A stretch of 64,000 nucleotides of DNA. It comes from Halobellus inordinatus (GTDB lineage: Archaea; Halobacteriota; Halobacteria; Halobacteriales; Haloferacaceae). The translations under genes and the position numbers were made by a program. The DNA is taken from NCBI RefSeq assembly GCF_024464655.1, contig NZ_JANHAV010000005.1, forward strand, positions 62,001-126,000, read 5' to 3'. Below the pieces are notes generated by a model. It searched no databases, had not been told where the DNA came from, and saw nothing but the letters and a program-made list of their open reading frames with translations. Below, piece after piece: positions 11,947-44,632 of the stretch; position 1 is the stretch's first letter, and each line of letters opens with the position of its first letter.

Positions 11947-11997
11947 ACTGCGGGTCAGATCCGCTGAGACACTCCGCCTCCGAAGGGGATCTGGGCG

Positions 11998-12093
11998 AAC
12001 AGTCGGCACAGCAACTCCCGATGACTCGGGCTGACTCCCGCGTCGACGTGCCGAACGACCGCTGCCCGACGCGGGGTGCGTCCTACGTCACGG
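11998..12093 (-). ncRNA. Candidate structured small RNA, copy 1 (novel family)
   Basis: The intergenic block between ppc and the aldo/keto reductase gene shares a 40-nt identical core (12036-12075) and conserved flanks (11998-12012 and 12081-12093) with 44523-44603. On the minus strand the core folds as a 9-bp stem CCCGCGTCG/CGACGCGGG (12067-12075 with 12037-12045) closing a 21-nt loop. TCGGCAC in the loop (minus strand of 12048-12054) can pair with GTGCCGA (minus strand of 12003-12009), making a pseudoknot. A variable linker here carries an extra hairpin CCCGAGTCATCGGG absent from copy 2. No reading frame is conserved. No match to RNase P, SRP or tRNA was recognised. Confidence 0.55.
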
Positions 12094-12113
12094 CAAGGAT
12101 GGCCCCGGCTTCG

Positions 12114-12121
12114 TATATAAA
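12114..12121 (-). promoter_or_regulatory. TATA box for small RNA copy 1
   Basis: Minus-strand TTTATATA, a near-consensus haloarchaeal TATA element, ends 21 bp upstream of the conserved block. Copy 2 has ATTTATAT at almost the same distance. This predicts a transcription start inside the conserved CCGTGACGTAGGA segment. Confidence 0.6.
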
Positions 12122-44427: not shown

Positions 44428-44510
44428 TATAGGGATTATCGTAAGTCTCCATAGATTTCTCGCCGGACGATACGGCGAGAATCTCCGAACAGTTACGATA
44501 ATCCCTAGTA
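44428..44510. repeat. Palindromic repeat family A, copy 4
   Basis: TATAGGGATTATCGTAAGTC ... GACGATACGGCGAGAATC ... GAACAGTTACGATAATCCC: the same element as copies 2 and 3 but reversed in orientation. It lies between the 3' side of the second small RNA (minus strand) and the MBL gene start. Together with the RNA locus it fills the 359-bp gap between the MBL and lhr genes. Confidence 0.75.
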
Positions 44511-44522
44511 GTTCCGGTGGCA

Positions 44523-44603
44523 AACAGTCGGCACAGCGGGTGAGCTCCCGCGTCGACGTGCCGAACGACCGCTGCCCGACGCGGGACAGTTCCTACGTCA
44601 CGG
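44523..44603 (-). ncRNA. Candidate structured small RNA, copy 2 (novel family)
   Basis: Matches copy 1 (11998-12093) over AACAGTCGGCACAGC, the 40-nt identical core (44546-44585) and TCCTACGTCACGG; the linkers between these blocks differ in length and sequence. On the minus strand the 9-bp stem CCCGCGTCG/CGACGCGGG and the pseudoknot pairing TCGGCAC/GTGCCGA (44558-44564 with 44528-44534) are preserved. CAGCGG in the loop could alternatively pair with CCGCTG here. The minus-strand TATA box is at 44625-44632. Intergenic on both sides, with no conserved reading frame. Confidence 0.55.
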
Positions 44604-44624
44604 GGTCGCTGGGCCCGTGATCGG

Positions 44625-44632
44625 ATATAAAT
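44625..44632 (-). promoter_or_regulatory. TATA box for small RNA copy 2
   Basis: Minus-strand ATTTATAT ends 22 bp upstream of the conserved block, essentially the same spacing (21 bp) as the TTTATATA box of copy 1. Confidence 0.6.

Follow-up and report, generated by a model that had tools for sequence, protein, structure and literature searches.

The 64,000-nucleotide (nt) stretch of Halobellus inordinatus analysed here (contig NZ_JANHAV010000005.1, positions 62,001 to 126,000; hereafter the window) carries, between the genes for phosphoenolpyruvate carboxylase (ppc) and an aldo-keto reductase, a block that we assign to a family of predicted small RNAs. A reading of the window made without database searches (the sequence-only reading) had noticed this block. 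It is real, but its limits had to be corrected to 11994-12091 on the minus strand, with the promoter reaching 12121. As had been described, the core CCCGCGTCGGGCAGCGGTCGTTCGGCACGTCGACGCGGGAG is identical between two copies in the window (over 41 nt), the ends are conserved and the linkers are not. Also present as described are the minus-strand stem of 9 base pairs (bp) with its 21-nt loop, the seven-base pseudoknot partner and the upstream TATA box, whose first base lies 30 nt before the conserved 5' end (+1 = 12091). An extra hairpin proposed for the linker does occur, but is optional across copies. The features are listed in Table 1. From the comparisons below, what lies at this locus is one member of an undescribed, ancient, structured and multicopy family of predicted RNA genes, haloarchaea-wide in its reach.

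Table 1. Parts of the predicted small RNA and its promoter, in window positions.
Feature	Position	Strand	Observation
Small RNA copy 1	11994..12091	-	98 nt as modelled (3' end is the model boundary); C19:73994-74091; covariance-model E 1.2 × 10−17
TATA box TTTATATA of copy 1, -30 to -23	12114..12121	-	Kept at constant spacing in nearly all copies read
Promoter-proximal element CGGGGCCA, -16 to -9, consensus CGGGRCCA	12100..12107	-	Most copies have the element
Proposed two-codon minigene GTG-ACG-TAG (start, Thr, stop), +1 to +9	12083..12091	-	Start-X-stop pattern across copies
Leader, 16 nt from +1 to the stem; +10 to +14 sequence-variable	12076..12091	-	Length nearly constant across copies
Stem S1, 5' strand CCCGCGTCG	12067..12075	-	9 bp; class-wide covariation in 6/9 pairs
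Pseudoknot S2, 5' strand TCGGCAC, within the 21-nt S1 loop	12048..12054	-	7 bp, with all cells (100%) paired; class-wide covariation in 4 pairs
Stem S1, 3' strand CGACGCGGG	12037..12045	-	Covariation as for the 5' strand
Variable linker, 27 nt, with optional hairpin (CCCGAGTCATCGGG)	12010..12036	-	No ortholog-specific conservation
Pseudoknot S2, 3' strand GTGCCGA	12003..12009	-	Pairs with 12048-12054
Conserved 3' tail CTGTTCGCC, 9 nt	11994..12002	-	Class-wide; variants include CTGTCAGCC and CTGTACGCC
Small RNA copy 2	44519..44601	-	C19:106519-106601; covariance-model E 1.2 × 10−18
Copy 2 promoter TTTATATCCGATCACGGGCCCA	44610-44631	-	C19:106610-106631; found by promoter-module search

Compensatory base changes indicate that the predicted fold is an H-type pseudoknot, formed by the 9-bp stem S1 and the 7-bp stem S2. 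Among 14 copies from the genome itself, 99.1% of pair cells were standard and 16 cells showed a double change. For 20 copies from across the class, 99.7% of the pair cells in S1 and S2 were standard and 57 showed a double change; none of 500 shuffles reached the observed values in either set. The class-wide covariation score was 0.514, compared with 0.164 after shuffling and at most 0.139 with the helices slid, and two-sided changes occurred in six of the nine S1 pairs and four of the seven S2 pairs. Because the alignments were fitted to S1 and not to S2, the evidence for the pseudoknot is independent of the structure in the model. In an automatic test of pairing, 117 of 121 copies could form a pseudoknot of at least 6 bp with their own tail, against 84 on average once tails had been swapped. 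We repeated this test on a largely independent additional set of 40 copies from six genomes of other genera and families, 39 of them from five genomes (one genome, G038, had given one other copy to the model). Here, the counts were 29 of 40 with the own tail and 13 with swapped tails, some of the failures being longer loops that extend beyond the scanned stretch. A lack of compensatory changes had been named beforehand as evidence against a structured RNA, and the opposite was found. Loop L1 contains a conserved GCGG, which is GAGGCGG-like in some lineages (e.g. L211, L215, L219, L234 and L239), and copies L213, L214 and L225 have a far longer structured loop insertion that might be a binding pocket. 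A helix between the 5' leader and the 3' tail (GUGA/UCGC) was considered by eye and showed no covariation, and a tRNA-like CCA end was not consistent among copies.

To determine how widespread the family is, we used blastn and covariance models. The block matched 16 places in its own genome by blastn, itself included; one of the 15 others (L023) lay inside a coding gene and was dropped as spurious. Covariance model R1, built from 14 copies with S1 as the only structure given, identified 19 copies in this genome at E ≤ 1.3 × 10−6, and a later model identified 21. The repetition noticed by the sequence-only reading is thus real, as the own-genome matches exclude chance, but there are about 20 copies and not two. 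R1 also detected 28 and 37 copies in two congeners (G033 and G068, respectively) and members in 46 of 79 genomes sampled from the taxonomic family. A search across Halobacteria had been suggested together with the original proposal; we ran it with R2, which is R1 widened with class members, and found the family in 109 of 194 genomes and 36 of 65 genera, often with at least 5-23 copies per genome. R2 found no member in 85 Halobacteriota genomes outside the class, under stricter filters and with many of these genomes yielding few first-look candidates. R3, a model with laxer filters, was run on the Halobacteria genomes that had been negative earlier, and nearly all of them, several genera included, still gave none; a single match was weak and probably spurious. 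The distribution within Halobacteria is therefore patchy rather than universal. Among the genomes without the family (G005, G008, G013 and others), several genera are represented, as is a congener that gave few first-look candidates and whose G+C content is probably low. In genus g28, by comparison, there are two copies. Weak matches at L080:2001 and L246 also look spurious.

Searching Rfam had been suggested as well. In Rfam 15, nothing in the window reached the gathering threshold except two tRNAs, and a permissive scan of four copies gave sub-threshold matches only. We found no description of such an RNA family in the open-access papers searched. The proposal of a candidate new structured RNA family is thus supported by covariation, copy number and the absence of an Rfam match. 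If a family with up to 37 copies per genome and a class-wide range is indeed missing from Rfam, the catalogue of archaeal non-coding RNAs has a considerable hole. Among genome contigs, the exact 22-base core was found in two Halobellus genomes and in one unrelated Solirubrobacteraceae metagenome-assembled genome, the latter presumably by chance. Among plasmid records, one Halobellus limi plasmid had two partial matches.

A TATA-like box precedes nearly all copies by 30-31 nt, and the element CGGGRCCA follows it at about -16 to -9. The promoter module TTTATATNCGANNNCGGGRCCA, allowing at most three mismatches, occurs at 28 sites in the genome, compared with one for a reversed-pattern control. 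It is also found upstream of apparently leaderless protein genes (L193, L195, two in L198, L201 and L202), whose ATG lies at the same distance. Leaderless transcripts make up 72% of the protein-coding ones in Haloferax volcanii (PMC4983044). We therefore take the conserved GTG to start at +1. The haloarchaeal promoter motifs given in PMC4983044 do not include CGGGRCCA. The RNAs would be stand-alone molecules of about 70-130 nt, each transcribed from its own leaderless-type promoter.

At this predicted 5' end, most copies appear to begin with a two-codon minigene. Of 161 copies in the model alignment, 151 begin with GTG and eight with ATG (NTG in 159), and the third codon is TGA in 117, TAG in 22, TAA in 14 and TGG in one. 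TGG would be expected 17.6 times if the columns were independent (Fisher p = 3 × 10−16, nominal since the copies are related). The complete pattern [G/A]TG-NNN-stop is present in 152 of the 161 copies, as well as in 40 of 40 copies of the additional set. At every other position stop triplets are rare, except for TGA at +2 (116 of 161), which is frequent because of the sequence GTGA. The second codon specifies 16 different residues, T, R, I, S and V among them, with Thr in half of the copies. Since this codon varies, the dipeptide is not what is conserved and is unlikely to be the product. Start-X-stop thus appears to be selected as codons, as stop synonyms interchange and TGG is avoided, and we infer that it is translated.

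The distance between the minigene and the pseudoknot is nearly constant. S1 begins after 15-16 nt in most copies (leader 16 nt, standard deviation 0.9), whereas the linker has a standard deviation of 9.7 and a range of 5-93 nt by automatic measurement. The toeprint of an initiating ribosome lies at +15/16 (PMC6104027). The leader would thus be about as long as the footprint of an initiating ribosome, a match that is suggestive and no proof. The sequence-only reading had proposed neither the number of copies nor their spread over the class, and it had not noticed the leaderless start-X-stop minigene or that the leader is as long as a ribosome footprint.

Taken together, the features that the sequences show, namely fold, start, stop, spacer, multiple copies and shared core, point to ribosome engagement. 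We lean, by a modest degree, towards a stand-alone family of leaderless RNAs that combine start-X-stop with a pseudoknot and engage ribosomes, where transcription, translation, ribosome binding and the role itself are what we infer. In the mechanism that we propose, a 70S ribosome would initiate without a leader on the 5'-terminal GUG, and its leading edge would run into the pseudoknot at its base, which lies about 16 nt from the 5' end. The ribosome would add at most one residue and then terminate or drop off. By engaging and briefly occupying ribosomes, the RNA could throttle translation or sense how many ribosomes are free. As all copies share the core, they would do the same job, and copy number would set the dosage. 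That the pseudoknot is placed one ribosome length from the start so that the RNAs capture and release ribosomes without making protein, as a throttle or a gauge of free ribosomes, is a more tentative proposal, to which we give slightly less than even weight. If true, this would be an RNA-based device for which the open-access papers searched contain no archaeal precedent. The combination of start-X-stop, constant spacer and pseudoknot ties the family directly, and in a way open to testing, to leaderless translation, by which initiation mostly proceeds in Haloferax volcanii.

Several observations weigh against this interpretation. GUG starts 151 of the 161 copies, which is odd for an efficient ribosome trap; in Haloferax volcanii, only 6% of leaderless transcripts have a GUG start, which is associated with low expression (PMC4983044). 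Four copies (L046, L137, L109 and L110) lack a canonical start and appear to open with ATC, while by inspection they keep the leader of about 16 nt. Within this sub-type, L046 and L137 are orthologs; orthologs in another genus (L078 and L247) carry the minigene, and this lineage therefore seems to have lost its start. R2 and R3 were trained on minigene-bearing copies, which may have biased recovery, though three bases weigh little in a model. Because several genera do without the family, it is not essential to haloarchaeal life.

The early stop could instead serve as a translation guard. The real job of the RNA would then lie elsewhere, with the pseudoknot and the conserved GCGG loop binding a protein or ligand, and the stop would prevent ribosomes from unwinding the fold. 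On the premise that any GUG or AUG at the 5' end serves haloarchaeal ribosomes as a start, this would explain the stop without any action on ribosomes. It is consistent with the frequent TGA in the second frame at +2, with the ATC-type copies, which avoid a start altogether, and with the conservation of the loop GCGG and the tail. However, a guard need not retain a start, yet 159 of 161 copies keep NTG and eight have ATG, which strengthens the start; the constant leader length is also left unexplained. We consider a guard unlikely, if a serious contender. As far as sequence can tell, retention of the start codon favours a throttle or gauge over a guard.

The positions of the copies in the genome bear on a function in cis, in which the element, lying antisense between a gene end and a gene start, would serve its neighbours as terminator, insulator or antisense regulator. 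A home-made gene finder placed 76 of the 77 copies in three congeners between genes, each with its own promoter. The downstream neighbour was convergent in 55 of 76 cases, in line with the earlier statement that the RNA is not the leader of a neighbouring gene; the upstream, co-directional placement of a leader was not what we found. In tandem gaps, the RNA was antisense in 39 cases and sense in nine (p = 1.5 × 10−5). This bias can be explained by a cis function, but also if copies simply avoid sites from which transcription would run on into a sense gene. The conservation of some loci across families speaks for a cis function, but the neighbours are varied housekeeping genes (MutS, NuoCD, UvrC, ppc, TFB, aroA, hisF and others) among which no theme was seen by eye. 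Besides the nine sense placements there are 12 divergent ones, and pseudoknot and minigene are alike everywhere; we regard a cis function as improbable. Even less probable is a classical trans-acting antisense small RNA (sRNA) with a copy-specific seed in the leader or linker. Leader positions +10 to +14 and the linker do differ among copies, but in 18 orthologous pairs linker identity was 0.37, compared with 0.44 in random pairs, and identity of the variable leader was 0.52 in both. Linkers moreover tolerate hairpins and a transposon-like insertion. Since the variable segments have no ortholog-specific conservation, the copies appear to carry no private guides and probably share one common job. 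Complementarity of the tail, leader and loop to 16S rRNA was no better than in shuffles. The many dispersed, near-identical copies within one genome might also suggest a mobile or selfish repeat, such as a miniature inverted-repeat transposable element (MITE), a repetitive extragenic palindromic (REP)-like element or an insertion sequence end. Many copies are syntenic between congeners, however, and loci common to genera or families include those at a TFB gene (families f1, f7 and f8), aroA, hisF, an HAD phosphatase and a YcaO gene, named by eye from translations. Such vertical synteny at the level of species, genus and family speaks against a mobile element, as do the constraints on the compensatory structure, promoter and minigene. 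Phage records gave no match, the genus-core pattern was not found in viral contigs, and no inverted repeats were reported at the copy 1 locus. A known family or a mobile-element end had been named as evidence that would speak against the proposal; with no Rfam match, conserved synteny and no phage match, neither was found. We give a mobile repeat very little credence, and from these comparisons neither a guide nor a mobile element seems likely. The TFB-adjacent copies L035, L062, L096, L109 and L110 share the same two flanking genes in three families while their stem sequence has been exchanged, and this locus is a natural case for separating cis from trans function.

Known systems share parts of this architecture. 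Lambda bar is a two-codon minigene. In bacteria, two-codon minigenes such as axe-txe mg2 occupy ribosomes and cause peptidyl-tRNA release (PMC8708949). The family resembles both in its start-X-stop frame with an irrelevant peptide, and those minigenes engage and release ribosomes. They lie within or upstream of other bacterial or phage genes and have Shine-Dalgarno leaders, whereas the archaeal family is leaderless, stand-alone and multicopy, and its minigene precedes a pseudoknot. Retroviral readthrough signals consist of a stop codon, a spacer and an H-type pseudoknot. Similarly, the stop in the family lies about 7 nt before an H-type pseudoknot that would press on the ribosome, but there is no conserved downstream frame, as the linker length varies, and a readthrough product is therefore not expected. 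Bacterial sibling sRNAs (Qrr, OmrA/B), which act via Hfq and base-pairing seeds, also occur as several copies with a common core. Unlike these, the family has no evident conserved copy-specific seed, and its structure is unrelated.

Among haloarchaeal RNAs, s194 of Haloferax volcanii is a ribosome-associated non-coding RNA with C-rich 3' ends that is encoded by one gene and binds the 50S subunit (PMC6104027). Like the family, it is an intergenic RNA of about 100 nt, and it is linked to the ribosome; judged by its description rather than by sequence comparison, it differs in being a single gene with no reported pseudoknot or minigene. The same species has ribosome-occupied, apparently non-coding sRNAs such as sRNA_61, which is 111 nt long and has no detectable protein (PMC12482152). 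RNAs of this type are short and abundant; compared by description only, they are not described as a family. They might include members of the family, which may thus account for part of the sRNAs reported as occupied by ribosomes yet yielding no protein. What would be new is the architecture of the RNA family. An intergenic sRNA, STRG.136887.1, has been reported from Halobellus limi (PMC7002113).

Next to copy 2, window positions 44428-44510 hold a palindrome resembling a MITE (TAGGGATTATCGTAA...TTACGATAATCCCTA), of which the genome has at least 40 copies. Three of them lie in or beside RNA copies, including one beside L038 and the palindromic insertion within the linker of L042.
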